This document shows, in pieces, positions 1 through 14,706 of a stretch of DNA of 64,000 nt. The position numbers and the translations under genes were made by a program. The notes below the pieces were generated by a model. It was not told the DNA's origin and made no database searches. It saw only the letters and a list, made by a program, of their open reading frames with translations. The DNA is from Pseudonocardia alni (GTDB lineage: Bacteria; Actinomycetota; Actinomycetes; Mycobacteriales; Pseudonocardiaceae). Every line of letters begins with the position of its first letter. Position 1 is the first letter of the stretch. Location: the NCBI RefSeq assembly GCF_002813375.1, contig NZ_PHUJ01000003.1, forward strand, positions 1,922,001 to 1,986,000, given 5' to 3'.

Positions 1-263
1 TGGACCGAGCCGAACGCGTCGAGCACCGCGGCGAGGAGCTCCTCCGCCGCGGCCGGGGCGGCGATGTCGGCGGTGATGCCGACGGCCGTCGCCCCGGACG
101 GGTCGAGCCGCCCGGCCACCGCCCGGGCGGCGTCGCCGTCGAGGTCGGCGACGGCGACCCGGTGGCCGTCGACGTGCAGCCGTTCCACGACCGCCCGGCC
201 GAGCCCGTTGGCGCCGCCGGTGACAACGGCGACCGGCGCGCTCACGGCGTGCACAGCGCTCAC
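1..263 (-). CDS. iacE: SDR-family oxidoreductase, N-terminal part only (IacE-like)
   Basis: The translation from GTG 263 begins with a Rossmann nucleotide-binding segment containing TGGANGLGRAVV near residues 9-20, then an acidic residue in VADLDGD, the normal opening of a short-chain dehydrogenase/reductase. The gene runs off the left edge, so the catalytic Tyr-Lys part is not visible. Its GTG overlaps the TGA of the dioxygenase beta-subunit gene (GTGA), so it is translated as part of that operon. IacE-type SDRs act with IacA early in indole-3-acetate oxidation; cis-diol dehydrogenases of the benzoate type are the main alternative. The SDR call is firm from the motif; the iacE name rests on gene order. 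Confidence 0.8.
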   Translation of the reverse strand, partial: MSAVHAVSAPVAVVTGGANGLGRAVVERLHVDGHRVAVADLDGDAARAVAGRLDPSGATAVGITADIAAPAAAEELLAAVLDAFGSV

Positions 264-799
264 AGCAGGAACCCCGCGGCCGGGACGGCGCTCTCGCTGT
301 TCACCAGCCGGACCACCTTCTGCACGATCCGGTCGCCCGCGGGCCCGTCGGGGGCGAGCCGGATCCGGTGGCGCAGGTCGGCGGCCCACAGGTCGTGGCG
401 GTCGCGCTTGAACGCGACCAGCACCTGCGCGGAGCGGAGGACGACCTCGGTGCCGCCCGCCGGGCCGGTGACCGACTCGGGCACGAACCGGGACACCGTA
501 CGCACGGTGCGGGCAGCGTCGACGGCGGCGATGGCGTAGCCCTCGGTCATCCGCACGACGCGCATCTGCCGCATCCGGGCGTCGTCGTAGACCATGTTGA
601 GGGTGCCGTCGAAGTCCTCGGTATCGGGGTCGATCGGCACGACGTAGGTGGCGTCGTCGGTGTAGAGGCTCTCCCACCGCAGGTAGGCGGCCCGGTCGAG
701 CAGCTCGGCCTCACGCCAGACGAGCTCGATCGCGCGGACCACGGCGGGGTCGGTCGTCGGGACCGGCGCCGGGACCCTCTCGGGTGCCTCAGTCATCAC
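260..799 (-). CDS. iacD: Aromatic-ring-hydroxylating dioxygenase beta subunit (IacD-like)
   Basis: This 179-aa protein has the usual length and fold signature of the small, NTF2/SnoaL-like subunit of Rieske dioxygenases: an acidic N-terminal helix region (VWREAELLDRAAYLRWESLY), the conserved YTDDATYVVPI stretch, and a C-terminal RIVQKVVRLVNSE-like strand. The subunit is structural and packs with the alpha subunit in an alpha3beta3 or similar complex. Either GTG 799 or ATG 796 could be the start; GGAG lies about 7 nt before GTG 799. It overlaps the end of the alpha-subunit gene and the start of the SDR gene, so the three are translationally coupled. Substrate cannot be read from this subunit; the iacD assignment is from neighbours. 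Confidence 0.85.
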   Translation of the reverse strand: MMTEAPERVPAPVPTTDPAVVRAIELVWREAELLDRAAYLRWESLYTDDATYVVPIDPDTEDFDGTLNMVYDDARMRQMRVVRMTEGYAIAAVDAARTVRTVSRFVPESVTGPAGGTEVVLRSAQVLVAFKRDRHDLWAADLRHRIRLAPDGPAGDRIVQKVVRLVNSESAVPAAGFLL

Positions 800-2081
800 C
801 CATCATCTCCTTCCAGCGCCCGTAGGCGGCGCGCATGCCGGTCTCGTCCGTGACGTGCGCGGTGGGGTGCCCGTCGGCATCGGCCTTCTCCCGGGCCGAG
901 CCGCGGTTGATCAGGATCGGCATGTCGGGGGCGGCGGCCGCGCCGCGCTGCACCCGGTCCCAGCCCTCGGCGTCGTCGGGGGTGCCGAACCCGAACGGGC
1001 CCTGGAAGTGCTCGTGGATGCGCAGCCGGGCGCGGTTGACGGCGTCGAGCTCGGGCGGGCCGTCCGGGCCGATGGCGACGTGCTCGATGACGGTCTCGTC
1101 CACCGCGACCGGGCGCAGCACCCGGAAGAACGCCGCGGACAGCGACACGTTCGGGAACAGGTTCAGGTTGAACCCGGTGCCGTGCATCGCGCGCACGACC
1201 TTGCGGACCGCAGCCGGGTCCAGGGTGGCCGACAGCTCCTCGACCAGGCCGTCGAAGCGGGCCTGCAGGGGCTCGCTGCCGTCGTCGGCGTCGAGGTCGG
1301 AGTGGGCGGGCACCATCTGCATGACGCTGTGCCCGTGGCCGAGGTCGTGGGTGACCGCCGTCGGGTCGGTCATGAACGACATCATGTCGGCGGTCTCGGC
1401 GTCGACCGAGGCCATCCACGACCGGTGCACGATCGGGAAGTGGTAGCCGTCGGTGGTGTTCTCCAGCTGGATCTTCCAGTTCCCGCGGAAGGTGAACCGG
1501 TGCCTGCCCAGCACCTTGACCGGGTAGCCGCCGCCCTGCTTCATGAAGCGGTCGATCCACAGCCGGGCGTCGCCGAGGAAGGTCTCCAGCGGCTCGGCGT
1601 CCGGGTCGAGGGTCGCGAAGACCATGCCGCCGTAGGACTCGGTGCGGAGCCGGCGCAGCGACAGGTCCCGCTTCTCCAGTACGCCCTCGTAGCCGTCGGG
1701 GTAGGGGACGCCGCGCAATGCGCCGTCCAGGCCGTAGGACCAGGCGTGGTACGGGCAGGTGAAGCCGTTGGCGCGGCCCTGCGGCTTCTCACAGACGCTG
1801 GCGCCGCGGTGCCGGCAGCGGTTGAGCAGGGTACGGATCTCGCCCTTGCGGTCCCGGGTGACGATCACCGGCTGGCGGCCGACGTGGGTGGACTTGAAAG
1901 TACCCGGCCCGGGCAGCTCGCTGGTGTGGGCGACCCACACCCAGGCCCGTTCGAAGATGCGGGTCATCTCCAGCTCGAACAGCTCCGGGTCGGTGTAGAG
2001 GCGCCCGGCGACGCGGTCGGCGCGGACGAGGTCGGCGGCGGTGGGACCGGTGACGTCGGCACCGGTGACGTCGGTGCTCAT
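789..2081 (-). CDS. iacC: Rieske non-heme iron dioxygenase alpha subunit (IacC-like)
   Basis: The 430-aa protein has a Rieske [2Fe-2S] domain with C89-x-H91 and C109-x2-H112 (CRHRG and CPYHAW). A later ENTTDGYHFPIVH segment carries the Asp/His mononuclear-iron site. It is the catalytic subunit of a two-component ring-hydroxylating oxygenase needing an electron-transfer partner that is not in the visible part of the operon. The start at ATG 2081 overlaps the stop of the preceding small gene (ATGA); an upstream open extension is only read-through over that gene. Position after IacA and IacB homologues and before the beta subunit matches iac operons, where IacC/IacD act on an oxidised indole-acetate intermediate. 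A benzoate/anthranilate-type dioxygenase is the alternative if gene order is ignored. Confidence 0.87.
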   Translation of the reverse strand: MSTDVTGADVTGPTAADLVRADRVAGRLYTDPELFELEMTRIFERAWVWVAHTSELPGPGTFKSTHVGRQPVIVTRDRKGEIRTLLNRCRHRGASVCEKPQGRANGFTCPYHAWSYGLDGALRGVPYPDGYEGVLEKRDLSLRRLRTESYGGMVFATLDPDAEPLETFLGDARLWIDRFMKQGGGYPVKVLGRHRFTFRGNWKIQLENTTDGYHFPIVHRSWMASVDAETADMMSFMTDPTAVTHDLGHGHSVMQMVPAHSDLDADDGSEPLQARFDGLVEELSATLDPAAVRKVVRAMHGTGFNLNLFPNVSLSAAFFRVLRPVAVDETVIEHVAIGPDGPPELDAVNRARLRIHEHFQGPFGFGTPDDAEGWDRVQRGAAAAPDMPILINRGSAREKADADGHPTAHVTDETGMRAAYGRWKEMMGDD

Positions 2082-2473
2082 CGGGCGTCCCCCCGGGTGG
2101 GCAGCGCGACGTCCTCGCGGACGGTCAGGGCGCGGCCGATCCGGGCCTCGACCTTCGCGAAGCGCCAGAGCTTCGCGTCGCCGTCGCCGACCCCGGTGGT
2201 GCGGAACAGGTTGCAGGCGGCCTTGACGGTGTCGGCGGTGTCGACGTCGGCCAGCAGGTAGCAGGTCCACGGCCAGCCGTCCGACGGGCCGACCATGTGC
2301 GAGTCGTCGTCGATGTCGCCGATGAAGTCGACCCCGGGCAGGGCCTTGATGCCGTCCATCATGGACACGAATGCGGCCCAGACGTCACCGGTGGTGATGC
2401 CGTCGGTGGGCAGGTCGAAGAAGTTCTGGTTGATGCCGATGCAGAACAGCACCCGCAGCGGTGGGGCGGCCAT
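2078..2473 (-). CDS. iacB: IacB-like small protein
   Basis: A 131-aa soluble protein with no signal peptide or membrane segment. Its N-terminus (VLFCIGINQNFFDL) and the central MVGPSDGWPWTCYLLADV stretch fit, from memory, the small IacB proteins of indole-acetate degraders, whose biochemical role is poorly defined. It sits between the IacA-like flavoprotein gene and the Rieske alpha-subunit gene, the position iacB has in proteobacterial clusters, and its TGA overlaps the next start as ATGA. The beta-strand-rich pattern and absence of catalytic motifs would suit a small accessory or ferredoxin-like alpha/beta-barrel protein, but that is a guess. The family call is moderately sure; the function is not known from sequence. 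Confidence 0.7.
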   Translation of the reverse strand: MAAPPLRVLFCIGINQNFFDLPTDGITTGDVWAAFVSMMDGIKALPGVDFIGDIDDDSHMVGPSDGWPWTCYLLADVDTADTVKAACNLFRTTGVGDGDAKLWRFAKVEARIGRALTVREDVALPTRGDAR

Positions 2474-2512
2474 GACGGTCTCCTCGGGGTGTCGGGTCGG
2501 GACGGGTGTCGG

Positions 2513-3715
2513 TCAGCGGAAGCCGGGCGTGGTGGCCGGCAGCCCCATCAGGACGGCGCCGGCGGCGTCGAACACCGCGGGGCCGAGGAAGGCGTGCTGC
2601 TTGGGCACCAGCGCGTCACCGGCCAGGTCCTGCAGCGGGTGGGTGGTGGCGATCGGCGCCGTGCCGGAGACCTCGATGAGGTCCGCGACGACGTCGGAGG
2701 CGGTCCGCGCCAGGTGCGCGGAGGCGAGCCGCAGCTCGGCGTTCTGCCGGTCGGTTGCCGGGTCACCGGCGAGCACGGTGTCCCACACCTGCCCGGTGGC
2801 CTCGTGGAACCAGGCGCGTGCCGACCGCAGCGACGCCTCGGCGCGGGCGACGGCGTCGCGGTAGTACGCCCGGTCCGCCAGCTTGGGCGCACCGGTGACC
2901 CCGGCGTAGCCGCCGCCGACCCGGACCGCGTGGTCCAGCGCGGCCCGCGCGACCCCGGCGCCGACGACGGCGAGCACCTGGGCGGCGTAGGCGATGGTCG
3001 GGTACCGGTAGAGCGGCTCGTCGACGGTCGGGGTGCCGCCGCGCACGAACGTCCACTCCCGTGGCACCTCGACCCCGCGCACGACCAGGTCGAACGACCC
3101 GGTGCCGCGCATCCCGACGACGTCCCACTCGGGGACGATCTCGACCTGGTCCGGGCGCAGGACCGCGGTGCGGGGCTTGCCGCCGGAGTCGTCGTCGCCG
3201 GGCATCCCGACGCCGAGCACGTCGGCGCCGGTGCAGCCGCTGGCGAAGCGCCAGCGGCCGTCGAGCCGGTAGCCGGTGGGGGTCGGCTCACCGGACTGCG
3301 GCGGGAACAGTGCCCCGGCGAACGCGACGTCCGGGCCGTCGGCGTAGAGCCGGGCCTGGGTCTCCAGCGGCAGCGCGGCCAGGTACACCAGCGCGGAGCC
3401 GAAGCTCGCGACCCAGCCGGTCGAGCCGTCGACGGCCGAGATCCGCTCGATGCGGTCCAGGAACTCCGCAGGCGGCTGCGGGGCTCCCCCGAAACGGGCC
3501 GGGGTGGCGCTGCGGTAGATGCCTGCCGCTTTCAGCGTGGTGACGAAGTCCTTCGGGACGAAACGCTGCTCGCGGAACTCCGTGCGGCGCACCGCGAGCT
3601 CGGCGAGCATCGCGTCGAAGGCCGCCTCCGACCCGGTCGCCGGCGTGGCCGCGGGCACCCCGGAACCGATGACGGCCCCGTCCTGAACGGCCCCGACGAA
3701 CTGTGTGCTCACCAT
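2513..3715 (-). CDS. iacA: Acyl-CoA-dehydrogenase-fold flavin monooxygenase (IacA-like)
   Basis: This 400-aa protein has the acyl-CoA dehydrogenase fold as used by flavin-dependent monooxygenases: an N-terminal helical domain with the ARFGG turn near residue 74, a central beta domain with the DVVGMRGTGSFDL segment, and a C-terminal helical bundle ending in PLQDLAGDALVPKQHAFLG. IacA enzymes hydroxylate indole-3-acetate using reduced flavin from a partner reductase, and such a reductase lies at 5510-6016. A strong AAGGAGGT stands just before ATG 3715; the second codon is GTG and may be the actual start. It is the first gene of the minus-strand operon and has a candidate activator box upstream. 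DszC/HpaB-like hydroxylases on other substrates are the alternative. Confidence 0.78.
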   Translation of the reverse strand: MVSTQFVGAVQDGAVIGSGVPAATPATGSEAAFDAMLAELAVRRTEFREQRFVPKDFVTTLKAAGIYRSATPARFGGAPQPPAEFLDRIERISAVDGSTGWVASFGSALVYLAALPLETQARLYADGPDVAFAGALFPPQSGEPTPTGYRLDGRWRFASGCTGADVLGVGMPGDDDSGGKPRTAVLRPDQVEIVPEWDVVGMRGTGSFDLVVRGVEVPREWTFVRGGTPTVDEPLYRYPTIAYAAQVLAVVGAGVARAALDHAVRVGGGYAGVTGAPKLADRAYYRDAVARAEASLRSARAWFHEATGQVWDTVLAGDPATDRQNAELRLASAHLARTASDVVADLIEVSGTAPIATTHPLQDLAGDALVPKQHAFLGPAVFDAAGAVLMGLPATTPGFR

Positions 3716-3821
3716 CGCACCTCCTTCTCGATTCGCTTTCCGACATCGAGAGTAGGAATTCCGGTGACGTGCCAGGAATCGGCAACGGCCCCCGCCCGGA
3801 TAGGGATGCTCCGCAGTGGCG

Positions 3822-3870: not shown

Positions 3871-5418
3871 GTGGTGGACGAGGTCGAGCAGAAGGTCGAG
3901 CCGCAGGCCCCGGAGCTCGTGACCGGTGACTTCGTCGCGATGATGCGGGCGACCACGATGTGTGTACTGCTGCACGACGCGGCGACGAAGAACATCCTGT
4001 GGGCCAACCCGTCGGCGTGCCGGCTGCTGGGCTGGAGCCTCGCCGAGCTGCGCCCGCTCAAGGCCAACCACATGTCCAGCACCGCCCCGCAGTACCACCG
4101 GGTGCTGGGCCGGGCCTGGCTGCACGAGGCCGTGGAGCGGGGCAGCAACCGCATCGAGTGGCACTACCGCACGCGCACCGGGCGGGTGGTGCCGACCGAC
4201 GCCGTCGCGGTGCGGGTGGAGCTGGCGCAGGGGCCCGCGGTGCTCGTGCAGTTCCGCGACATCGAGCACGAGCTGGGCGTGGAACGCCAGCTGCGGCGCA
4301 CCACGTCCTCGATCGACGCGCTGGCCCGCCACACCTCCACGATCGCGCTCACCCTGGACCCGTCGGGTCTGATCCGGTTCGCCACCGACACCGCGCTGGA
4401 GCTGTTCGGGATGGACCCGGGCGCCCCGCTCGGGCACCTGGACCGGTACGGGCGGCTGCGCCGCGACGGCCGCCCGGCGGCGCTCGCGGAGCTGGTCGGG
4501 TCGGCCGACCCGACCGTGCCCGTACAGCTGGAGGTGCCCGGCAGCACGGGCGGGCCGGTGTGGCTGGAGGGCACCCTCGAGCGGCTGGCCGAGACCCCCG
4601 AGGACGACACCGGCCCCGCGTCCGGGCTGCTCATGATCCTGCACGACGTGTCGGGGCGGGTCCTCGCCGAGGCGGCCCGCGAGCGAGCCGCGCACCGGGA
4701 GAACTATCTGGCCCGCTACACCGCGATGGGCGACATGGCGATGGCGATCGCGCACGAGCTGGGACAGCCGCTGGCCGCCGCCGGGAACTTCCTCGACGGC
4801 ACCCGCCGGCACACCGAGGAGCTGGCCCGGGGCGGCGCACTCCCGGCCACCGACGCCGACCGGCTCGGCTACGGCCTGGGCAGCGCGCTGCGTCAGCTCG
4901 GCCGGGCGAGCGCGATCGTCGCGGCGGTGCGGGCGTTCGTCGGGCACCTGGAGCACACCGAACAGGTCCTCGACCTGCACGACGTGCTCGACGACTGCCT
5001 GTGGTTCGTCGGGCTGCGGGCCGACCCGGCCGGGGTTCGGGTACGGGTGGAGCGCCGTCCGGGGCCGCTGCGGGCGCGCTGCGAGCGGGTGCTGACCGGG
5101 CAGGTCCTGCTGAACCTGTGCTTCAACGCGGTCGAGGAGATGGCCGAGCTCCCACCGGAGCGCCGCGAGCTGGTCGTGACCACCGCCGTCGACGGCGACG
5201 AGGCCGTGGTCACCGTGGCCGACCGCGGGCGCGGGATCGACCGGGACCCGTTCGCGGAGTCGTTCTCCTCCAAGGAGCACGGCAGCGGAATCGGGCTGGC
5301 GCTGAGCTACCGGATCATCACCCGCCAGCACGGCCGGATCTGGGCCGTCCCGCGCGACGGCGGCGGCACCCGTTTCGGATTCGCCCTCCCGTCGGTGCCG
5401 GATGAAGGAAATCCCTAG
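3871..5418 (+). CDS. PAS-domain sensor histidine kinase
   Basis: A 515-aa kinase without membrane segments, so a cytosolic sensor. Residues about 20-135 form a PAS domain (NILWANPSACRLLGWS, RTRTGRVVPTDAVAVRV); a second PAS-like segment follows at about 150-262. The phospho-acceptor is H295 in MAIAHELGQPLAAAGN, the FixL/TodS-like H-box. The ATP-binding domain has the N box (NLCFNAVEEM), G1 (DRGRGID) and G2 (GSGIGLALSYRI). GTG 3871 or GTG 3874 is the start. It reads away from iacA and toward the flavin reductase, and its partner is most likely the response regulator at 7525-8169. Such PAS kinases often sense an aromatic substrate, here possibly an indole or aryl acetate. The last 16 bases of the gene form the box upstream of the next gene. 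Confidence 0.88.
   Translation: MVDEVEQKVEPQAPELVTGDFVAMMRATTMCVLLHDAATKNILWANPSACRLLGWSLAELRPLKANHMSSTAPQYHRVLGRAWLHEAVERGSNRIEWHYRTRTGRVVPTDAVAVRVELAQGPAVLVQFRDIEHELGVERQLRRTTSSIDALARHTSTIALTLDPSGLIRFATDTALELFGMDPGAPLGHLDRYGRLRRDGRPAALAELVGSADPTVPVQLEVPGSTGGPVWLEGTLERLAETPEDDTGPASGLLMILHDVSGRVLAEAARERAAHRENYLARYTAMGDMAMAIAHELGQPLAAAGNFLDGTRRHTEELARGGALPATDADRLGYGLGSALRQLGRASAIVAAVRAFVGHLEHTEQVLDLHDVLDDCLWFVGLRADPAGVRVRVERRPGPLRARCERVLTGQVLLNLCFNAVEEMAELPPERRELVVTTAVDGDEAVVTVADRGRGIDRDPFAESFSSKEHGSGIGLALSYRIITRQHGRIWAVPRDGGGTRFGFALPSVPDEGNP
5403..5418 (+). promoter_or_regulatory. Candidate activator box overlapping the kinase stop codon
   Basis: TGAAGGAAATCCCTAG ends with the kinase's TAG stop and lies 92 bp before the flavin reductase start. 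It matches the minus-strand box before iacA at 14 of 16 positions. A possible -10 element, TAGCGT, lies at 5464-5469, and an almost identical CCTAGCGTCGG occurs upstream of the intradiol dioxygenase at 13778-13788. Confidence 0.4.
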
Positions 5419-5509
5419 TCGGTTCCGGATGACTCTCGATATCGGGGCGACGCGTTCCGCCCGTAGCGTCGGACCGGTCGAGAACCGTCCGAGAACACCG
5501 GAGGACATC

Positions 5510-6016
5510 GTGTCCGAGCCGTCCACATCCGATTTCCGTGCCGCGATGGCGAACCTGTCCGCGGCGGTCAACGTGATCACCACCGACGGGCCGCTCGGGC
5601 GGGCCGGGATGACCGTGAGTGCGGCCTGCTCGGTCACCGACACCCCGCCGACGGTGCTGGTGTGCGTCAACCGCTCCAGCCGCTCGCACGCGGTGCTCGT
5701 CGGCAACGGACGGATCTGTGTGAACGTGCTCGGCGACGACCACGCCGACCTCGCGATGCATTTCGCCGGCGCGACCCGGGTGCCGACCGCCGAGCGGTTC
5801 GCCACCGGCTCCTGGGACCACGACACGCACGGCGTCCCGGTGCTGCGCGACGCGGCCGCGGCGCTCGTCGGCACCGTGCGCAGCGCCCGGGACCAGGGCA
5901 CCCACACCGTGCTGTTCGTCGAGGTCGACCACGTCTCCACCCGCGACGGGGGTGGCGGGCTCGTGTACTTCCAGCGGTCCTTCCACCCCGTCGGCACCTC
6001 CCGCCTGTCCGCCTGA
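5510..6016 (+). CDS. iacG: Flavin reductase (IacG/HpaC family)
   Basis: A 168-aa protein of the flavin-reductase-like, FMN-binding split-barrel family. The signature blocks are MANLSAAVNVITTDG at the N-terminus, GMTVSAACSVTDTPPTVLVCVN, and the C-terminal VLFVEVDHVSTRDGGGGLVYFQRSFHPV. It reduces FMN or FAD with NAD(P)H and passes the reduced flavin to a partner monooxygenase, most simply the IacA-like protein transcribed on the other strand. The start GTG 5510 has GGAGG five bases upstream; an open extension to 5402 lies over the promoter box and is rejected. First gene of a plus-strand unit with the 91-aa protein and amidase. iac clusters normally carry such a reductase as iacG. Confidence 0.84.
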   Translation: MSEPSTSDFRAAMANLSAAVNVITTDGPLGRAGMTVSAACSVTDTPPTVLVCVNRSSRSHAVLVGNGRICVNVLGDDHADLAMHFAGATRVPTAERFATGSWDHDTHGVPVLRDAAAALVGTVRSARDQGTHTVLFVEVDHVSTRDGGGGLVYFQRSFHPVGTSRLSA

Positions 6017-6037: not shown

Positions 6038-6313
6038 GTGACCACGTCCGCACCGCCGACCCGGCTGACCCTGACCTGCTACGTCGACACCCACGGCTAC
6101 GGCTGGCGCCACGTCGACCTGTTCGAGCACGACGCGGACGGCCGGGAGCTGGGCTGGGTGCACTGGCAGGTCGGCGCGGACGGTCCGGACGCCGCCGACG
6201 CCGCCACCGCCCGGATGGAGCCACACCTGCGCCGCACCGGACCGTGGCGGCACCGGGTCGGGCCGAGCGGTACCGACTTCTGGGAGGCCGACGCCCGGTG
6301 GGTGCGCCCGTGA
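6038..6313 (+). CDS. Conserved-looking hypothetical protein, 91 aa
   Basis: I do not recognise a family. The product is 91 aa, soluble, rich in His, Trp and Asp (TCYVDTHGYGWRHVDLF near residues 13-29 and GWVHWQVGAD near 39-48), with no Cys pair, signal peptide or membrane segment. ATG is absent; GTG 6038 follows GAGGAGCGCCC, a clear ribosome binding site. The TGA overlaps the amidase GTG (GTGA), so it is part of the flavin reductase-amidase operon and probably acts in the same pathway. The regular alternation of polar and aromatic residues suggests a small beta sheet. Real coding is likely because of the tight overlaps on its 3' side and consistent codon use. Confidence 0.68.
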   Translation: MTTSAPPTRLTLTCYVDTHGYGWRHVDLFEHDADGRELGWVHWQVGADGPDAADAATARMEPHLRRTGPWRHRVGPSGTDFWEADARWVRP

Positions 6314-7521
6314 GCCCCTGGTCGCTGCGCGACACCCTCGCCGCCGGGACGCACGGCGCCCTCGGCCGGGCCCGGGACGCGATCACCGCGACCGAGCCCG
6401 ACGTCCGCGCCTGGGTCGAGTTCGCCCCGGAGCCCACCGGGCCGCGCTCCGGCCCGCTCGGCGGCGTCCCGCTCGGGGTGAAGGACATCGTCGACGTCGC
6501 CGGGCTCCCGACGCGCTGCGGTTCGGTGCTGCGCGCCGGAGCCGCCCCGGCCGTCGCGGACGCCGCGATCGTCGCCGCCTGGCGGCGCGCCGGCGCGGTC
6601 CCGGTCGGCAAGACCGTGACCACCGAGTTCGCCTACTTCTCCCCCGGGCCGACCGCCAACCCGGCGGCGCCCGGTCACACCCCGGGCGGCTCGTCCAGCG
6701 GGTCCGCGGCCGCCGTCGCCGCCGGGCACGTGCCGCTGGCGCTCGGCTCGCAGACGGCCGGGTCGGTGACCCGGCCCGCCGCCTACTGCGGGGTGGCCGC
6801 GCTGGTGATGAGCCGCGGCCGGTTCCCGGTCGACGGTGTCACCGGGCTCGCCCCCAGCCTGGACTCCCACGGCGTGCTGGCCGCCCGGGTCGACGACCTC
6901 GCCGCCGCCTGGGCGGCACTGACCGGCGAGCCGGACCCGGCGGGACGGACGCCCCGCACGCCGCGGTTGCTGCTGTGCACGGCCGGACCGCTCGAACCGC
7001 CGATGCGGGCCGCGCTGGCCGGCGCGGCGGAGCGGCTGCGGGCGGCCGGGACGGTCGTCGACCTGCTGGACGCGGCCGACGTGGACGCGCTCACCGCCGC
7101 GCACCCCGTCGTCATGGCCTACGAGGCCGCGCGCGAGCGCGCCGTGGAACTGGCCCACCCCGGGTCGCTGAGCGTGCCGCTGGCGGAGCTGCTGCATCGC
7201 GGCGCGGCGATGCCGGAGACGGAGTACCGCGCCGCACTCGGCCGGGTCGCGCGGCACGGCGAGGCGCTGGCCGCGGCCACCCACGGCTACGACGCGGTGC
7301 TCGCCGCCGCCGCCCCGGGACCCGCGCCACGCGGCCTGGACGCCACCGGGGACCCGGTGTGCAGCCGCGCCTGGCAGGCGCTCGGCCGGCCTGCGGTCAC
7401 CGTGCCCGGCCTGCGCGACGACGCGGGGCTCCCGCTCGGGCTGCAGCTCGTCGGGCACGCCGGACACGACGGGGACCTGCTCGCCACCGGGTGCGGGGTC
7501 GAGCAGGTCCTGCGGGCGTGA
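6310..7521 (+). CDS. iacH: Amidase-signature hydrolase (IacH-like)
   Basis: A 403-aa amidase-signature protein. The Ser-cisSer-Lys triad is visible: K58 in GVPLGVKDIVDVAG, the cis-Ser within GGSSSGSAAAVAAG (residues 126-139), and the nucleophile S152 in GSQTAGSVTRPAAYCG. It hydrolyses an amide bond; in iac loci the IacH amidase is thought to act on a pathway intermediate or conjugate, though its step is not settled. It starts at GTG 6310, overlapping the stop of the 91-aa gene. The length is a little under the 450-500 aa common for the family, with a compact C-terminal part. It converges on the response regulator gene, leaving only three bases between the two stops. Confidence 0.83.
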   Translation: MSPWSLRDTLAAGTHGALGRARDAITATEPDVRAWVEFAPEPTGPRSGPLGGVPLGVKDIVDVAGLPTRCGSVLRAGAAPAVADAAIVAAWRRAGAVPVGKTVTTEFAYFSPGPTANPAAPGHTPGGSSSGSAAAVAAGHVPLALGSQTAGSVTRPAAYCGVAALVMSRGRFPVDGVTGLAPSLDSHGVLAARVDDLAAAWAALTGEPDPAGRTPRTPRLLLCTAGPLEPPMRAALAGAAERLRAAGTVVDLLDAADVDALTAAHPVVMAYEAARERAVELAHPGSLSVPLAELLHRGAAMPETEYRAALGRVARHGEALAAATHGYDAVLAAAAPGPAPRGLDATGDPVCSRAWQALGRPAVTVPGLRDDAGLPLGLQLVGHAGHDGDLLATGCGVEQVLRA

Positions 7522-7524: not shown

Positions 7525-8169
7525 TCAGACCTCGACCTGATGGGTGAGGATGTCGCGCACCAGGGTGCCGAGGCTCTCCGCACCGGTCTTGGCCTTGATC
7601 CGGGCCCGGTGCACGTCGACGGTCTTGACGCTCGTCCCGAGCCGGTGCGCGACGGCCTGGCTGGCCATGCCCTGGATGACCAGGGCCAGCACCTCGCGTT
7701 CGCGCGGGGTCAGGCCCTCCAGCCGCTCCCGGACGGCGGCGCGGGCCGCGTGCGCGGCGAACAGCTCGCGCGCGCGGCCCTGCTGGTGCTGCACGACCTC
7801 CAGGATGCGCTGGGTGTCGTAGGGCTTCTCCAGGAAGTCCACCGCTCCCCCGCGCAGCGCGCGCACCGACATCGGGATGTCGCCGTGCGCGGAGCAGAAC
7901 ACCACCGGCGCCGGGTACTCCCGGGCGAGGAGCTCCTCCTGCAGCTGGAACCCGCTCATCCCCGGCATCCGCACGTCCACGACGACCACGGCGGGCTCGG
8001 CCGGGTCGAACTCGGCGAGGAAGCTCGGCGCGTCGGGGTAGTCCAGGGCCTGGATCCCGACGCTGCCGAACAGGAACCGCAGCGACTGGCGCAGGTCGTC
8101 GTCGTCGTCGACGACGTGCACCACCGGGTCGCCGTCGGGCTCGCCGGGCCGTCCGGGCTGCGGGGTCAC
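7525..8169 (-). CDS. FixJ/TodT-type response regulator
   Basis: A 214-aa two-domain regulator. The receiver has the acidic cluster DDDDD at residues 21-25, the phospho-acceptor D65 in VVVVDVRMPG and the conserved K115 in FLEKPYD. The output is a LuxR-type helix-turn-helix at about residues 150-205 (LTPREREVLALVIQGM, then VAHRLGTSVKTVDVHRARIKAK). It starts at GTG 8169, overlapping the TGA of the IacI-like gene, so it is the last gene of the transporter-amine oxidase-aldehyde dehydrogenase operon. The PAS kinase at 3871-5418 is the obvious partner. It is probably the activator that binds the shared promoter box. Proteobacterial iac loci usually rely on a MarR repressor instead. Confidence 0.9.
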   Translation of the reverse strand: MTPQPGRPGEPDGDPVVHVVDDDDDLRQSLRFLFGSVGIQALDYPDAPSFLAEFDPAEPAVVVVDVRMPGMSGFQLQEELLAREYPAPVVFCSAHGDIPMSVRALRGGAVDFLEKPYDTQRILEVVQHQQGRARELFAAHAARAAVRERLEGLTPREREVLALVIQGMASQAVAHRLGTSVKTVDVHRARIKAKTGAESLGTLVRDILTHQVEV

Positions 8170-8762
8170 GGCCGCATGAGGACCGACGCCGAGGGGTGGT
8201 CGCTCGCGAAGTCCGCCGGCAGCGGGGCCACGAAGACGTTCTCGGTCCGGGTGCGCGAGATCAACCATCGGCCGTCGACCTTCCGGAAGGCGTTGTTGAG
8301 CCGGCTGGACCGCAGCAGCGCGGTGCCGTCGGAGAAGAGCCAGGGCTGCATGTGGATCCACTGGCCGTCGGCGGTGTCGCCGTGCACGTGGATCTGCTCG
8401 GAGGTGAGGTAGTGGGCGTTGAGCAGCAGCGCGGGGTCGCGCCTCTCGCCCCAGAACGACCGGAAGTGCGCGCGCACCGCGTCGGCTCCCTCCGCCCGTC
8501 CGAACTGCCCGTCGTAGTACTCGCCCACACCTTCCCAGACGGCGTCGTCGGTGTAGAGGGCCATGACGAGCTCGATCCGCTCCTCGTCGTCGGCGACGCC
8601 GTACTCGGGGATCGGGGTGTCGCAGAGCCACATGTAGCGGGCCTGCAGGCGGCGGATGTCGGCCTCGGCCTCCAGGACCTCGACCCGGCGGGCCAGCGCC
8701 TCCAACGTGGTGGCGTCCTCGGTGGTGGCGTCCTCGGTGGTGGCGTTCTCGGTGGTGGTCAC
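8166..8762 (-). CDS. iacI: SnoaL-like / ring-hydroxylating beta-like protein (IacI-like)
   Basis: A 198-aa protein with a SnoaL/NTF2-like fold: LEAEADIRRLQARYMWLCD helix, LVMALYTDDAVWEGVG strand-turn, a central HFRSFWGERRDP segment and C-terminal DGRWLISRTRTENVFVAPL strands. It has no catalytic signature that assigns a reaction. Such proteins occur in iac clusters as IacI with no firm function. The N-terminus is a low-complexity stretch with three copies of ATTED-like residues encoded by 15-bp tandem repeats. It begins at GTG 8762, 11 bases after the aldehyde dehydrogenase stop, and its TGA overlaps the response regulator start, so it belongs to the same operon. Confidence 0.7.
   Translation of the reverse strand: MTTTENATTEDATTEDATTLEALARRVEVLEAEADIRRLQARYMWLCDTPIPEYGVADDEERIELVMALYTDDAVWEGVGEYYDGQFGRAEGADAVRAHFRSFWGERRDPALLLNAHYLTSEQIHVHGDTADGQWIHMQPWLFSDGTALLRSSRLNNAFRKVDGRWLISRTRTENVFVAPLPADFASDHPSASVLMRP
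8706..8750. repeat. 15-bp tandem repeat, three copies, inside the iacI-like gene
   Basis: Three consecutive copies of GGTGGTGGCGTCCTC or one-base variants lie at 8706-8720, 8721-8735 and 8736-8750, with a fading fourth copy. In the minus-strand protein they encode repeats rich in Ala, Thr, Glu and Asp just after the start codon. Copy number may vary between strains because the unit keeps frame. Confidence 0.85.
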
Positions 8763-8773
8763 GGGGCTGCTCC

Positions 8774-10225
8774 TCACAGGACGACGGTGACGGTCTTGGA
8801 CTCGGTGTGGGCGAGGATCCCCTCGCGCCCGAGCTCGCGGCCCAGGCCGCTGGCCTTGACCCCGCCCCAGGGCAGCTGCGGGGCGAGCGGCGACCAGCCG
8901 TTGACGGCGACCGCACCCGCCTGCAGCTGCGCGGCGACGGTGTGGGCGCGGCCGATGTCTCGGGTCCAGACCGTGGCGGCCAGCCCGTAGTCGGAGTCGT
9001 TGGCGAGCGCGACGGCCTCGGCGTCGTCGTCGAAGGCGATGACGGTGCCGACCGGCCCGAAGATCTCCTCGCGGGCGATGCGCAGGTCGTTGCCGCCGGT
9101 GAACACCGTCGGCGGGACGAAGAACCCGGGGCCGGACGGGGCGTCGCCGCCGACGACCAGACCGGCGCCCTCGGCGCGGCCGGCGTCGACGTAGCCGAGC
9201 ACCCGGTCGCGCTGTACGGCGCTGACCAGCGGGCCCATCGTCGTCGCCGGGTCCAGCGGGTCGCCGAGGACCTGCGCGCGGGCGGCCTCGGCGAGTCCAC
9301 CCAGCACGTCGTCGAGCACCGAACGGTGCACCAGCACCCGGGTACCCGCCGCGCAGACCTGGCCCTGGTTGGTGAACAGCCCGGCCGCGACGCCGCCGAC
9401 GGCCGCGGCCACGTCGGCGTCGCCGAAGACGATCTGCGGGGACTTGCCGCCCAGCTCCAGGGTGGTGCGGGTCAGGTGGGTCGCGGAGTGGCGCAGGATG
9501 CGGCGTCCGACCTCGGTGGACCCGGTGAAGCTGACCTTCGCCACCCCCGGGTGGCGGACCAGCGCCTCCCCGACGACCGCGCCCGGCCCGGGCAGCACCT
9601 GCACCGTCCCGGGCGGGAACCCGGCCTCGCCGACCAGGCGAGCCAGGTGCAGCACGGCCAGCGATGCGTCCTCGGCGGGCTTGACGATCACTGCGTTTCC
9701 GCAGGCCAGAGCCGGCGCGAGTTTCCAGCCGAGGATCATCAGCGGGGCGTTCCACGGCACGATCGCAGCGACCACGCCGAGCGGCTCGCGCCGGGTGTAG
9801 GACAGCGTCGCGGCGCCGAAGTAGCCGTCGGTGGGCAGCACCTCACCGGTGATCTTGTCGGCCCAGCCGGCGTAGTGGCGCAGGGTCGCGACCAGGTTGG
9901 GCACGAACAGCCCCGCCGCGACGCCCAGCGGTGCGCCCATCTCGCGGGCCTCGAGCCGGGCGAGCTCGTCGAGGTCGCGCTCCACGAGGTCGGCCAGCCG
10001 GGTGAGCAACACACCCTTCGTCGACGGCAGCACGGCGGCCCACTCCCCGCGCATCGCGCCCGCCGCGGCGGTCACCGCGGTGTCGACGTCGGCCGCGTCG
10101 GCGGCCGCGACGTGGGCGAGGACCTCGCCGGTGGCCGGGTTCAGCGTCGGGAAGCTGCCGCCGCCCCCGGGTGCGAAGGCGCCGTCGAGCAGCAGCTCGG
10201 CGGGCGGGATGAGCGTGCCGGTCAT
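8774..10225 (-). CDS. Aldehyde dehydrogenase (NAD(P)+-dependent)
   Basis: A 483-aa aldehyde dehydrogenase with all main landmarks: VPWNAPLM at residues 157-164, the cofactor motif FTGSTEVG at 233-240, general base E257 in LELGGKSPQ, and nucleophile C291 in NQGQVCAAGTRVL. The C-terminal EEIFGPVGTVIAFD and PWGGVKASGLGRELG blocks are present. It oxidises an aldehyde to a carboxylate. Since the next gene upstream in the operon is a copper amine oxidase, the likely substrate is the arylacetaldehyde that enzyme makes, for example indole-3-acetaldehyde to indole-3-acetate. ATG 10225 overlaps the amine oxidase TGA (ATGA), which supports coupled synthesis. The substrate is inferred from context only. 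Confidence 0.9.
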   Translation of the reverse strand: MTGTLIPPAELLLDGAFAPGGGGSFPTLNPATGEVLAHVAAADAADVDTAVTAAAGAMRGEWAAVLPSTKGVLLTRLADLVERDLDELARLEAREMGAPLGVAAGLFVPNLVATLRHYAGWADKITGEVLPTDGYFGAATLSYTRREPLGVVAAIVPWNAPLMILGWKLAPALACGNAVIVKPAEDASLAVLHLARLVGEAGFPPGTVQVLPGPGAVVGEALVRHPGVAKVSFTGSTEVGRRILRHSATHLTRTTLELGGKSPQIVFGDADVAAAVGGVAAGLFTNQGQVCAAGTRVLVHRSVLDDVLGGLAEAARAQVLGDPLDPATTMGPLVSAVQRDRVLGYVDAGRAEGAGLVVGGDAPSGPGFFVPPTVFTGGNDLRIAREEIFGPVGTVIAFDDDAEAVALANDSDYGLAATVWTRDIGRAHTVAAQLQAGAVAVNGWSPLAPQLPWGGVKASGLGRELGREGILAHTESKTVTVVL

Positions 10226-12201
10226 GCAGGGCTCCCAGGGGTCGTGTCGGCGGTGCCGGCGTCGACGGCGCAGCAGGCCTCGGCCGGGCGGCCGTGCGCG
10301 CCCAGATCGGGGACGTCGAGGGTGGGGTTGCGGTCGAAGAAGCCGTCCGGCTTGAGCCGGAACCCGGCGTGGTCGACCGGCATGACCGGCCAGTCCTCGG
10401 GCCGGACGAAGTGGGTCAGGCCGAAGGTGTGCCACAGGACGACGTCCTCGCCGTCGATCGACCGGTCGCCCGCGGTGTAGGCGGGCAGCCCGGCGCCGCC
10501 GGGGTTCTGGTTGACGGTGTAGCCGGCAGGCCAGAGCTGGTCCCGCTCGTAGCGGCTGACCCACAGGTGGTGGCGCGCGAACGCGGCCCGCGCGGCGATC
10601 GAGGAGGCCGGGTCGGCCAGCAGGGTCGGGTACCCCTGGGGGAGCAGCGCGTAGGCGGTGGGGCGGCCGAACCGGTTGGTGTGCTCGGTGCTGCACACCC
10701 GCCAGATCCGGTTGCGGTCGTTCGCGGCGTCGCGGCGGGCCCCGCCCTCGCTGCGCAGCCGGGTCACCGAGCGCGCGATCGCGTTGCCCCAGGGGTTCGC
10801 CTCCCCCGTCGGGACGCCGACGGCCTCCTGCTCCTCCACGGCGTTGGCGACGCCGTCGACGGTCATGTCCAGGCGGGCGGAGAACAGGTGCTGGTGCACC
10901 GGCGCGCCCAGGCCGGGACCGACCGGGTCGAAGTGCGGGTCGGTGCCGTCCCAGCCGCTGGGGAACGGGATCCCGGTGGCCTTGGCCTCCAGCTCGATCG
11001 TCCCGTCGAGGTAGAGGTACCAGTAGAAGCCGTAGTCGTAGTTGCCGACGGTGCCGAAGAACGACACGACCATGCGGCGCTGGCGCCGGGTGTGGGTCTG
11101 CCCGGTGAAGATGTCGTTGTGCTTCCAGAGGATGCCGGTGTCCTCCTCGTGCAGGCAGATCGCGTTGCGGATGGTCCGCGGCCGGCAGTCGTCGTCGACG
11201 ACGACGGTGTCGACGTAGGTGACGTCGCCCAGGCAGTCGCAGCCCAGCTCCAGGGAGTTCGCGAGCCGCCCGAACTGGTACTCGCCGAGGTCGAAGTAGT
11301 TCTGCCAGCCGTGGGTGGGGCCGGGGTCGCCGTAGTTGACGACCATCTCCGCGATCGAGGCCCGGTAGACGACGGGGCGCCCGGCGAAGGCCAGCTGGTG
11401 CAGCGTGAGGCCCTCGCGGCCGTTGAACCCCAGCCGCACGGTCCAGTTCTGCCAGCTCAGCACGCCGTCGTCGGTCAGGGTGAAGGAGACACCCTCGGGC
11501 TGGGTGATCGAGATCGGCTTGAGGTCGGTGCGCTCGGGCCCGCGCACGGCCGGGTCGGCCCAGTCGCCGGACTCGGTGGGCACGTGCTCGACGTGGGTCT
11601 CGACGACCCGCAGGACCGTGCGGGAGTCGACGTCGACGTGGGCGATCACGCCGCCGACCGGGTGTGCCCACGGCGCCGAGGTCGGGCTGGGCTGCACGAA
11701 CGACAGCACCCGGTACACGCGGCGGCCGACCTCGTCGTCGTAGCCGAAGACCCCGGCCGACAGCGGCACCGGGCGGACGGTGGACACGTCGGTGACCCCG
11801 CGCCGGGCGAGCGCGGCGAGCCACTCCGGGTCGGCCTTCACGATCGCGTCGACGAGCGCGTAGTCCTCGTCGAGACAGGGCCCGACGCCGACGGCGGCCG
11901 GGTCCAGCGGCTCGTCGGACACGACCCGTCCCTCGTGCAGCTCGACGACGATCGTGCGCAGCGCGAGCGGGTCGAGCCGGGTGAGCAGCAGGGTGGCCTC
12001 GCGCGGCAGCGGCGCGGCGCCGTCCCAGGCGAGCACGTCGGCCTTGTCCGGCTCGCGCAGCATCACATAGGAGAAGCGGCTGTCCGGGGTGAGCAGCCCG
12101 GCGTCGTCGACGATCTCCCGGGCCCGGTCGACCTCGGCGGCGGTGAGCATCGACAGCGGGTGGACGGCGACGGTGGACTGGGGCGGGGCGTCGACGGACA
12201 T
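10222..12201 (-). CDS. Copper-containing primary amine oxidase
   Basis: A 659-aa copper/topaquinone amine oxidase of normal family length. Y388 in VGNYDYG is the tyrosine converted to topaquinone; D304 in NYFDLGEY is the catalytic base; H436 and H438 (VHQHLF) are copper ligands, with a third His probably in the HHLW segment near residue 594. It oxidises R-CH2-NH2 to the aldehyde with release of ammonia and hydrogen peroxide. No Tat or Sec signal is seen, so it is probably cytosolic. It is followed with an ATGA overlap by an aldehyde dehydrogenase, and the pair makes an arylacetate from an arylethylamine such as tryptamine, phenethylamine or tyramine. Tryptamine is favoured because the rest of the block looks like indole-acetate degradation. 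Confidence 0.92.
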   Translation of the reverse strand: MSVDAPPQSTVAVHPLSMLTAAEVDRAREIVDDAGLLTPDSRFSYVMLREPDKADVLAWDGAAPLPREATLLLTRLDPLALRTIVVELHEGRVVSDEPLDPAAVGVGPCLDEDYALVDAIVKADPEWLAALARRGVTDVSTVRPVPLSAGVFGYDDEVGRRVYRVLSFVQPSPTSAPWAHPVGGVIAHVDVDSRTVLRVVETHVEHVPTESGDWADPAVRGPERTDLKPISITQPEGVSFTLTDDGVLSWQNWTVRLGFNGREGLTLHQLAFAGRPVVYRASIAEMVVNYGDPGPTHGWQNYFDLGEYQFGRLANSLELGCDCLGDVTYVDTVVVDDDCRPRTIRNAICLHEEDTGILWKHNDIFTGQTHTRRQRRMVVSFFGTVGNYDYGFYWYLYLDGTIELEAKATGIPFPSGWDGTDPHFDPVGPGLGAPVHQHLFSARLDMTVDGVANAVEEQEAVGVPTGEANPWGNAIARSVTRLRSEGGARRDAANDRNRIWRVCSTEHTNRFGRPTAYALLPQGYPTLLADPASSIAARAAFARHHLWVSRYERDQLWPAGYTVNQNPGGAGLPAYTAGDRSIDGEDVVLWHTFGLTHFVRPEDWPVMPVDHAGFRLKPDGFFDRNPTLDVPDLGAHGRPAEACCAVDAGTADTTPGSPA

Positions 12202-12229
12202 GGGGGTCCCTTCGCGTCGGTGGGCGGAG

Positions 12230-13576
12230 TCAGACGGAGGCGGGCGCGGGCTGCGCGGCGGCGCGCGCGGCGAGCCGGCGCGGCGCGGTCTCGGGCAGGA
12301 CGGCGAGGCAGACCAGCGACAGCAGCAGCGCGCAGGCCAGGTAGTAGCCGATGTTCACCGCGTCGCCGGTCCAGGCCAGGATCCGGTTGGCGACCAGCGG
12401 CGAGATGCCGCCGCCGAGCACGGCGCCGACGTGGAAGGCGATGCCCATCCCGGTCTGGCGCTGCTCACGGCTGAACAGCTCGCCGAAGTACACGTACATC
12501 GGGCCGAACAGCACGCCGGTGGCGGCGAAGCCGAGGCACATCGCGAGAGTGACCGCGCCGACGGTGCCCTGCGCCGACAGCGGGAAGATCGAGAGCGCGG
12601 CGACGATCGACAGCACCGCGCCGGACATCATCACCGGGCGGCGGCCGAACCGGTCCGAGGCGACGGCGCCGACCACGTTGAACACCCCGTGCAGGACGAG
12701 CGCGAGGATGGCGCCGTTGACGATCGGCTGGCGGGGCAGCCCGAGCCCCTGGGGGGCGGCGGCGGTGGCGTAGGACAGCATGAAGATCGACAGGGCGAAG
12801 GTCGTCGAGTTGAGCCCGATGTTGACCCCGGCGGCGAGCAGCACCCGCCGCCAGCCGGTCCGCAGGACCTCGACGACCGGGGCGCGCCGGGTCTGCAGCG
12901 CCCCGGAGTCGTGCAGGGCCCGGAACTCGGGGCTCTCCCGGACGCCGCGCCGCACCCAGATGCCCAGCACCAGCACGACCCCGCCGAACAGGAACGGCAG
13001 CCGCCAGCCCCAGTCCGACACGTCCTGGGCGGGCAGGAACAGCACGAACATGAACGCGACGTTCGCCAGGATCGTCCCGACCGGGGAGCCGAGCGCGGTG
13101 AACACGCCCCACAGCGCGCGTCGCTCCGGTGGGGCGTGCTCCATCGCCAGCGTCGCGGCGCCCCCGGTCTCGCCGCCGCGGCAGAGCCCGTGCACCAGGC
13201 GCAGGCACACCAGCAGCACGGGCGCGGCGACACCGATCGTCGCGTAGCTCGGCAGCAGTCCCATCACGACGGTCGCCGCGCCCATGCCGAGGAAGGTCAG
13301 CATGAGCGCGGTGCGCCGGCCCCGGCGGTCGCCGACCCAGCCGAACAGGACCGCGCCGAGCGGGGCCATGAGGAACCCGGTGCCGAAGGTCGCCAGCCCC
13401 ATGAACGTGCTGAACCACGGATCGCCGGTGCGGAAGAACGTATCGGTGAACACGAGCGCGGTCGCGGTGCCGTAGATCGCGAAATCGTAGAATTCGAGCG
13501 AGGTGCCGACACCACTGGCGACGGCGACGCGGAGGAGGCTGGAACGGGGCGGCGCAGGGTCCGGTGCGGTGGTCAT
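12230..13576 (-). CDS. MFS transporter, metabolite:proton symporter type
   Basis: A 448-aa, 12-helix major facilitator of the metabolite:H+ symporter (MHS) kind, the group that includes shikimate and aromatic-acid carriers. It shows the N-terminal [18 protein letters not shown] helix, the loop 2-3 motif [26 protein letters not shown] at helix 4-5, and the second repeat motif [10 protein letters not shown]. It is the first gene of the amine oxidase operon, 28 bases ahead of that gene, so uptake of the amine or aryl acid is the likely job. Its promoter must lie in the 248-bp divergent region shared with the intradiol dioxygenase. Substrate unknown from sequence. Confidence 0.87.
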
Positions 13577-13717
13577 CGAGCGGGTCCCCCGGTTCGGGTC
13601 GGCGGTTCGGCGGGGTGGACGCGCAGCTCAGCGGGGTCGCTGTGCGGCACGGCACACGGTCCACCGAGACAACACCGGCATCGGCGGGCGCTCCATCGGA
13701 AGTTGGGCCAACCCGGC

Positions 13718-13733
13718 TGAAGATTTCCCCCAT
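13718..13733 (+). promoter_or_regulatory. Candidate box in the divergent transporter/dioxygenase promoter
   Basis: TGAAGATTTCCCCCAT resembles the two stronger boxes at 3822-3837 and 5403-5418 but with mismatches. Downstream in the same region the octamer GGGAATCG occurs twice, at 13743-13750 and 13764-13771, 21 bp apart, close to two turns of the helix, followed by CCTAGCGTCGG as at 5464. Together these look like a regulated divergent promoter region; the link to the response regulator is inferred. Confidence 0.3.
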
Positions 13734-13824
13734 GCCGCCCGAGGGAATCGACACTGGCCCGCCGGGAATCGCGCGCCCTAGCGTCGGCCTGCGATTCACG
13801 CCGACGGTTCCGGGAGGATTTCCG

Positions 13825-14706
13825 ATGCGTTTCCCGAATGAGACGGCCCCGGTCCCCGCCGACGCGCTCGTCGACCGGGTGACCCGGTCGTTCGACGCCT
13901 GCCCCGACCCGCGGCTGCGCGAGGTGCTGGTGTCGCTGGTGACCCACCTGCACGCCGTTGTACGCGAGGTGCGGCTCACCGAGGACGAGTGGGCGGCCGC
14001 GGTCGCGTTCCTCACCCGCTGCGGGGAGGTCACCGACGAGCACCGCCAGGAGTTCGTGCTGCTCTCCGACGTGCTCGGCCTGTCGATGCAGACGGTCACG
14101 GTGAACGACCGCACCGAGGGCGGTGCCACCGAGGCCACGGTGTCCGGCCCCTTCTTCGTCGAGGGCTCCCCCGAGGTCCCGCTCGGCGGCGACGTCGGCG
14201 GCGGCGCCCGCGGCGAGCCGTGCCTGGTCGAGGGCACCGTCACCGACGACGCGGGCCGTCCCGTCCCGGGCGCCCGGATCGAGGTGTGGGAGGCCGACGA
14301 CGACGGCCGCTACGACGTCCAGTACGACGACGGACGGGTCGCGGGACGCGCGCACCTGTTCAGCGACGCCGCGGGCCGCTACCGGTTCTGGGGCGTCACC
14401 CCGACCCCGTACCCGATCCCGCACGACGGCCCGGTCGGCGCGCTGCTCGCGGCCGCGGGCCGGTCCCCGATGCGAGCGGCCCACCTGCACTTCATGGTCA
14501 CCGCTCCGGGGTTGCGCCGGCTGGTGACCCACATCTTCGTGCGCGGCGACGCGCTGCTGGACCACGACGCCGTGTTCGGGGTGCGGGACTCGCTGGTCAC
14601 GACGTTCGAGCAGCGCCCGGCCGGGACGCCGGCACCGGACGGCCGGGTCCCGGACGGGACGTGGACCCGGGCCCGGTTCGACATCGTGCTCGGGACCGCG
14701 GACTGA
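13825..14706 (+). CDS. Intradiol ring-cleavage dioxygenase (hydroxyquinol/catechol 1,2-dioxygenase)
   Basis: A 293-aa intradiol dioxygenase with the N-terminal helical linker domain at about residues 15-105 and the catalytic beta domain after it. The four ferric-iron ligands are Y163 (DGRYDVQY), Y196 ([13 protein letters not shown]), H220 and H222 ([10 protein letters not shown]). The [11 protein letters not shown] and THIFVRGD blocks look closer to hydroxyquinol 1,2-dioxygenases than to plain catechol enzymes. It opens the aromatic ring between the two hydroxyls to a muconate or maleylacetate. GGGAGG precedes ATG 13825 by seven bases. It is transcribed divergently from the transporter-amine oxidase operon and is the likely ring-opening step for the product of the iac-like enzymes. 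Confidence 0.9.

Follow-up and report, generated by a model that had tools for sequence, protein, structure and literature searches.

We analysed a 64,000-nucleotide stretch of the genome of the soil actinobacterium Pseudonocardia alni (contig NZ_PHUJ01000003.1, positions 1,922,001 to 1,986,000; the whole stretch is henceforth referred to as the window), the left part of which carries homologues of the iac genes for degradation of indole-3-acetate (IAA), together with a copper/TPQ amine oxidase (CuAO), an aldehyde dehydrogenase (ALDH) and an intradiol dioxygenase. Genes were called over the first 22 kb of the window and 14 kb upstream of it, and the proteins were scanned against Pfam and NCBIfam profiles. 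All nine homologues of iacA-I are clustered, and the set begins 1.5 kb before the window (negative positions lie upstream). The minus strand holds an IacF-like reductase (-1479..-529, wholly outside the window), an IacE-like short-chain dehydrogenase/reductase (SDR; -498..254, of which the N-terminal part, 1..254, lies in the window), an IacD-like ring-hydroxylating dioxygenase beta subunit (260..799; PF00866), an IacC-like Rieske dioxygenase alpha subunit (789..2081), an IacB-like protein (2078..2473) and an IacA-like flavin-dependent monooxygenase with the ACAD fold (2513..3715). The iacC and iacD homologues are adjacent, which is the iac marker used in the part of PMC9613470 available to us. 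On the plus strand follow a PAS sensor histidine kinase (3871..5418; profile scan), an IacG-like flavin reductase (5402..6016, alternative start 5546; PF01613), a small conserved protein of 91 amino acids (orf91; 6038..6313), which matches no family, and an IacH-like amidase (6310..7521; PF01425).

A single minus-strand operon lies beyond these genes, in the order of transcription an MHS-type metabolite/H+ symporter (12230..13576; profile scan), the CuAO, of the phenylethylamine oxidase (AGAO) type (10222..12201; profile scan, PDB match and residues), an ALDH resembling the phenylacetaldehyde dehydrogenase StyD (8774..10225; 700 bits against a cut-off of 800), an IacI-like SnoaL_4 protein (8166..8777; PF13577 and alignment) and a FixJ/LuxR-type response regulator (7525..8169; profile scan). 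The CuAO/ALDH, ALDH/IacI and IacI/regulator junctions are overlaps of 4 bases, as in translationally coupled operons. Divergent from the operon, on the plus strand, is an intradiol dioxygenase of the hydroxyquinol 1,2-dioxygenase (HQD) type (13825..14706), assigned by bit scores and a tree. A preliminary description of the window had already placed the IacA-, B-, C-, D-, G-, H- and I-like genes, an SDR, the CuAO, the ALDH and the MHS transporter here, and gene calls, profiles and tblastn agree. It had confined the set to positions 1-14706, which holds for most of the genes, but its SDR is the IacE homologue leaving the left edge and IacF lies outside, so that A-I is complete only with the flank. 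The operon it proposed stands for the CuAO, ALDH, IacI and MHS genes, which are all on the minus strand and overlap from the CuAO onwards, but not for the dioxygenase on the opposite strand, and the kinase (3871-5418), the FixJ-like regulator (7525-8169) and the 91-residue gene (6038-6313) had been passed over.

Identities obtained by tblastn against the iac cluster of Acinetobacter baumannii X4-300 were 43% (A), 61% at 90% coverage (B), 55% (C), 34% (D), 45% (E), 39% (F), 24% (G), 32% (H) and 32% (I), and those against Burkholderia cenocepacia were 58% (A), 56% (B), 61% (C), 53% (D), 51% (E), 51% (F), 52% (G) and 40% (I); both serve as reference loci and are not the characterised strains themselves; in the species of X4-300, the iac locus that has been studied is that of A. 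baumannii ATCC 19606 (PMC12502551, consulted in part). IacI is only 32-40% identical to the A. baumannii and Burkholderia versions, but 68-85% identical across 80 IacI loci. The top NCBIfam model for the IacC-like protein is the anthranilate 1,2-dioxygenase large subunit, under its cut-off. No Pfam or NCBIfam family matched the IacB-like protein at E 0.001, and some of its relatives carry the annotation 'IacB protein'; because it matches no other family, we regard the iac assignment as firm. Auxin loci in Actinobacteria have already been published (PMC9613470, in the part seen). Among 297 sampled genomes of the family, 53, including the window's host, carry the IacB-like gene, and in the 52 other family loci seven or more iac genes are present in 38 and all nine, at 40% identity or more, in 29 (some loci are cut by contig ends). 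These counts allow one match per gene and locus, so that the IacE of one locus (L085; 43%) was missed, which leaves the counts of seven or more genes unaffected. Both the kinase and the response regulator are kept in 37 of the 38 loci, B. cenocepacia has homologues of them at 39% and 52%, respectively, and no MarR regulator was found among the locus proteins scanned, the regulator here being of the two-component type. Two-component regulation of iac is on record for Paraburkholderia phytofirmans PsJN (IacS/LuxR) and some Pseudomonas (PMC11630574, available in part).

The CuAO aligns over its whole length with its closest solved relative, phenylethylamine oxidase (702 bits), which we take to be the Arthrobacter globiformis enzyme, and it keeps Tyr388, His436/438/597 and Asp304, presumably the TPQ residue, the copper ligands and the base. 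CuAO and HQD were searched for in 47 of the 53 IacB-positive genomes, those with weak matches (G010, G040, G074, G085, G214, G244) being excluded. At least one CuAO copy is present in 37 of the 47, and nine (the window's own genome G000, G209, G192, G212, G162, G064, G175, G130, G151) have a copy no more than 20 kb from IacB, against a rough Poisson expectation of 0.36; the nine belong to three genera, which brings the independent count nearer to 3 (P ~0.006), and contig ends may hide more. The order CuAO-ALDH-IacI recurs in Amycolatopsis taiwanensis (L155/L095), Amycolatopsis MtRt-6 (L172) and A. nivea (L145), and is thus kept in four species of two genera, window included; ALDH-IacI occurs without CuAO in two further loci (L166, L177). 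All four CuAOs of this order have Tyr at the position of AGAO Phe105, and 12 other readable CuAOs have Phe (11) or Leu (1) there; matches under ~450 residues or with internal stops were left out of this comparison, and A. taiwanensis was read from the alignment. In A. nivea the trio and the complete iac locus (L178), which includes an IacI of its own, are on different contigs, and the trio may move as a unit.

The CuAO of other loci accompanies an APC permease and an Amidohydro_3 hydrolase. In P. alni an APC permease and an Amidohydro_3 hydrolase lie next to IacF (-4645..-1490). The Amidohydro_3 gene itself (-3067..-1490) recurs beside CuAO or iac, and homologues of the pair are found again together with a CuAO in the vicinity of iac (G151, several Amycolatopsis) and on a short contig of G293. 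The hydrolase may be an N-substituted formamide deformylase or an N-acyl-amine hydrolase; it reached no NCBIfam cut-off, and its PDB matches were weak and uncharacterised. A further amine route by the iac locus is seen at 17444-20962 of the window, where an ethanolamine permease is found with the large subunit of the EutB ammonia-lyase (EutC presumably following), and at 29262-31810 a Rieske oxygenase adjoins an FAD enzyme resembling N-methyl-L-tryptophan oxidase (296 bits, above the cut-off of 257).

Other bacteria, too, have amine oxidases beside iac. The expectation in the preliminary description that proteobacterial iac loci carry none fails for A. baumannii X4-300, which has a CuAO open reading frame (ORF) ~1.3 kb past iacG, and for several alphaproteobacteria. 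The X4-300 stretch (L089:9995-19070) reads as the iac cluster followed by a 304-aa ORF and the 774-aa CuAO ORF. CuAO itself was found in 0 of 26 alphaproteobacterial IacI loci. Beside iac, some alphaproteobacterial loci have an APC permease, an FAD oxidoreductase below every NCBIfam cut-off, a RidA-like protein (61 bits against a cut-off of 106) and a protein that fits the 'tyramine oxidase subunit B' model with 720 bits (cut-off 362). Within 10 kb flanks the subunit-B protein is present in 9 and the FAD protein in 6 of the 26 loci, the subunit is present somewhere in 15 of the 17 alphaproteobacterial iac genomes searched, and overlapping stretches (L200/L233, L189/L234, L201/L237, L199/L238) place the amine set adjoining iac. 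That arylethylamines are converted to arylacetates which feed iac, as had been proposed, is supported by the structure of the operon and by the recurrence of CuAO near IacB (9/47).

The dioxygenase at 13825-14706 matches 1TMX, which we take to be the HQD of Nocardioides simplex, with 437.6 bits over 278 residues and any catechol 1,2-dioxygenase in the PDB with 114 bits at most, and in the tree it groups with hydroxyquinol and not with catechol dioxygenases; on these grounds we reject its reading as a catechol dioxygenase. The preliminary description had misread the ring-cleavage step, and cleavage of catechol would rather use catA (C3:5219563), next to catC at ~C3:5.22 Mb, or a catechol-type dioxygenase gene at 35265-36137 of the window. 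The related claim of a complete route from amine to central metabolism is not literally true, since catC and a candidate maleylacetate reductase lie elsewhere in the genome, the latter an iron-type alcohol dehydrogenase (Fe-ADH; C3:1649834) adjoining a second HQD at C3:1.65 Mb. At what are presumably the substrate-pocket positions the window's HQD reads L-D-V-S-G-P-F; the pattern L-D-V-(F/L)-G-P-F fits 34 of 36 other HQDs, two having Ala first. The tree left out intradiol matches under ~180 residues or with internal stops and merged identical rows; the enzyme of one locus (L094), which scored nearer to HQD and groups with proteobacterial catechol-type rows, stands outside the residue count. 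Among the 47 iac genomes the HQDs closest to the window's are those of G209 (73%) and G260 (72%), both beside iac and ALDH. The window also contains a second aromatic cluster (33002-38351) with an HpaB-2-like hydroxylase, an HpaC-like reductase, a RibF-like protein, an enzyme resembling actinobacterial catechol 1,2-dioxygenase and a PcaD-like hydrolase that carries additional N-terminal sequence; the hydroxylase gene, at 36134-37732, resembles 4-hydroxyphenylacetate 3-monooxygenase (HpaB-2 model, 697 bits, below the cut-off of 885).

We compared 10 kb flanks around IacI in 80 named loci, the best 80 of 194 relatives, which are not phylogenetically independent and whose phylum labels were assigned by hand; genome-level searches were made without the genome of L207. 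Of the 80, 16 have an HQD together with an Fe-ADH resembling maleylacetate reductase no more than 10 kb from IacI, namely 12 of the 26 alphaproteobacterial loci and four actinobacterial ones (L155, L172, L187, L198). The paired Fe-ADH reached no NCBIfam cut-off, and we call it maleylacetate reductase because it is paired with HQD. At least four of iacA-F are found in 14 of the 16. An ALDH gene occurs in 13 of the 16 HQD loci and 13 of the 64 others (Fisher p 1e-5), and an amine oxidase or APC gene in 11/16 with and 15/64 without HQD, relatedness being ignored in both comparisons. Three Streptomyces loci have the reductase without HQD, and these also have CuAO and APC. The most compact arrangement is that of Amycolatopsis MtRt-6 (L172), which reads HQD-reductase, APC-CuAO-ALDH-IacI-regulator, IacH-orf91-IacG-kinase and IacABCDEF, and in A. 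taiwanensis this front end shares one locus with an HQD, the reductase and also a true catechol 1,2-dioxygenase (434.6 bits against a cut-off of 404.4), which is what two substrates would need. In several alphaproteobacterial loci the different amine-oxidation set stands beside iac, HQD and ALDH; the Azospirillum HQD matches 6-chlorohydroxyquinol dioxygenase with 424 bits and catechol dioxygenase with 141.

Most alphaproteobacterial and most actinobacterial iac-linked HQDs fall into two separate supported clades, with that of L198 outside both; the clades also hold HQDs that are not iac-linked (1/13 and 8/13, respectively). Because the HQDs are in separate clades, their pairing with iac had two or more origins, or a single origin followed by replacement, and recruitment of HQD to iac looks repeated as judged from the tree. 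In 18 alphaproteobacterial genomes 11 HQDs were seen in IacI stretches where ~0.12 were expected, a rough figure for genomes partly picked for the pair; six other alphaproteobacterial genomes stand outside this sum, and the fairer count is the 12 of 26 loci.

The presence of orf91 follows the completeness of the locus: all 38 family loci with at least seven iac genes have it, against 1 of the 14 that have fewer. Among IacI loci it occurs in 46 of the 52 from actinobacteria and in none of the 26 from alphaproteobacteria, and it was also found in a Rhodococcus locus and in one on a Streptomyces plasmid. Its best Pfam match, in 2 of 19 members, was at E 0.021 and thus short of the E 0.001 threshold, no NCBIfam or PDB relative was found, and the AlphaFold model (pLDDT 89) gave no clear fold match. 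Four partial loci (L061, L063, L077, L078) contain members of A, B, E and G but, at 40% identity, lack C, D, F, H, I and orf91, and possibly stop at dioxindole-acetate. This gene content suggests that orf91 belongs with the second half of the Iac pathway and IacB with the first; if so, orf91 would be a conserved unnamed protein marking the second half of the actinobacterial pathway, which is still unsolved.

The gene identities, the operon layout, their conservation and the recurrence of the combination are observed, and from them we infer substrates and direction of flux. We favour, at somewhat below even chances, a catabolic unit for indole-ethylamines, that is, amines of the tryptamine type including serotonin and its product 5-hydroxyindole-acetate. 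The MHS or APC permease would import the amine or the acid, the AGAO-like CuAO would convert tryptamine-type amines to indole-3-acetaldehydes and the StyD-like ALDH would convert these to indole-3-acetates. IacA/G and IacE, with IacB, would then give dioxindole-3-acetate, and IacC/D/F with IacH, IacI and orf91 would remove the side chain and the nitrogen to leave a catechol, with the two-component system replacing the usual MarR repressor. As the Iac pathway ends in catechol (PMC9613470 and PMC7225977, in the parts seen), unsubstituted IAA would yield catechol, to be cleaved by the cat genes elsewhere. By chemical reasoning the catechol hydroxyls should sit at the former ring-fusion carbons of indole; the C5 hydroxyl of indole then corresponds to position 4 of the catechol, and therefore a 5-hydroxyindole would give 1,2,4-trihydroxybenzene (hydroxyquinol). 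Serotonin would thus pass through 5-hydroxyindole-acetate to the substrate type of the divergent dioxygenase, and the resulting maleylacetate would reach 3-oxoadipate through a reductase encoded elsewhere (candidate C3:1649834). No separate ring hydroxylase is seen in three loci (L200, L209, L238), since their ORF lists show only IacI and ALDH between iac and HQD. The available part of PMC12502551 reports that 5-chloro-IAA blocks growth of an iac strain on IAA, its authors proposing conversion to chlorocatechol, which supports tolerance of a 5-substituent only indirectly, and in Corynebacterium glutamicum an operon with a hydroxyquinol-type reductase and dioxygenase responds to indole and 1,2,4-trihydroxybenzene (PMC7764795, in part).

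The wider proposal, which we hold more tentatively still, is of a widespread serotonin degradation island, comprising uptake, either of two unrelated amine oxidases, ALDH, iac, and HQD with its reductase, that may have been assembled separately in Actinomycetota and Alphaproteobacteria. If this is true, iac clusters are not for auxin alone, and one class of them would break down serotonin and 5-hydroxyindole-acetate, compounds made by both plants and animals, via a defined ring cleavage; HQD and maleylacetate reductase beside iac would then be a marker predicting which iac carriers degrade such compounds, testable for example in the cultured Ciceribacter naphthalenivorans, Rhizobium oryzicola and A. 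taiwanensis.

Several observations weigh against the indole-ethylamine reading, beginning with the relatedness of the 80 loci. One HQD-pair locus (L198) has IacI and none of iacA-F in its stretch, another (L187) shows iacC, D and F without IacA, B or E, and L199 has its HQD divided between two frames. CuAO is present in 10 and HQD in 4 of the 52 actinobacterial IacI loci, and HQD stands beside iac in 3 of the 47 iac genomes of the family; ALDH-IacI-iac is found in Pseudonocardia TRM90224 (L166) and Nocardia nova (L177) with CuAO and HQD absent from the 10 kb flank, and alphaproteobacterial L182 and L188 have amine and ALDH genes with no HQD in the stretch examined. CuAOs of the AGAO type may prefer phenylethylamine. 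At a position that is Phe or Leu in all 36 other HQDs compared (Phe in 1TMX), the HQD of the window has Ser, and no maleylacetate reductase lies beside it; because of these two features and its rarity in the family it may be a decaying or shifted copy; the local case for serotonin is weaker than the cross-phylum case. In the C. glutamicum system, 5-hydroxyindole hardly affected the repressor (PMC7764795, in part), and a literature search, with most subscription papers outside it, found no serotonin catabolism through iac.

Alternatively, the unit might serve tryptamine and IAA only, the CuAO and ALDH feeding plain IAA and the catechol passing to the cat genes, with the HQD an unrelated neighbour or one for other aromatics. 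Such a division would suit the presence of catA/catC and of a second HQD with its Fe-ADH elsewhere in the genome, the changed pocket and missing reductase of the window's HQD, and the loci where catechol-type dioxygenases, not HQD, stand beside iac (at least 8 of 52 family and 10 of 80 named loci), but it leaves unexplained why HQD-reductase pairs from separate HQD lineages recur by iac in two phyla, above the rough chance expectation, and we consider it unlikely. More improbable is a front end for phenylethylamine or tyramine that delivers (hydroxy)phenylacetates to another pathway and sits in the IacI operon as a general arylethylamine function. The 702-bit match to phenylethylamine oxidase, the StyD-like ALDH and the HpaB-2-like gene at 36134-37732 are in its favour; its genes, however, overlap IacI and the response regulator in an order with IacI that is kept in four species of two genera, and no phenylacetyl-CoA (paa) set was found among the window proteins scanned, which cover part of the window.

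Finally, IAA itself might become hydroxyquinol in this class of iac loci if IacI, orf91 or some other enzyme added a further hydroxyl group, the HQD then serving ordinary IAA. HQD-reductase pairs do lie next to IacI, the HpaB-2-like hydroxylase could be such an enzyme, and the steps from dioxindole-acetate to catechol are described as unresolved in the part of PMC7225977 seen. However, loci that have a catechol-type dioxygenase and no HQD contain this IacI type too, orf91 was not found in the alphaproteobacterial loci that have HQD, and the reported product of proteobacterial iac is catechol (PMC9613470, in part), which makes this the least probable of the explanations considered.

Compared with the known iac loci of Pseudomonas putida 1290, P. 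phytofirmans PsJN, A. baumannii and Caballeronia glathei, the present locus likewise has all nine iacA-I homologues, but differs in its divergent operons, in two-component rather than MarR regulation, in the extra orf91 and in the attached amine oxidase, ALDH and HQD. With two-component iac loci of the PsJN type it shares a PAS kinase and response regulator by iac, and departs from them in its actinobacterial layout, orf91 and amine front end. Its HQD resembles the 1TMX enzyme (437.6 bits) but has Ser for Phe, an iac neighbour and no adjoining reductase, whereas its CuAO resembles AGAO over the full length, with TPQ, copper and base residues kept, and differs in having Tyr at the Phe105 position and in sitting in an iac operon. 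In E. coli, tynA-feaB lies next to paa; there too a CuAO and an arylacetaldehyde dehydrogenase are linked to an arylacetate pathway, which in E. coli is the phenylacetyl-CoA pathway and in the window is iac.

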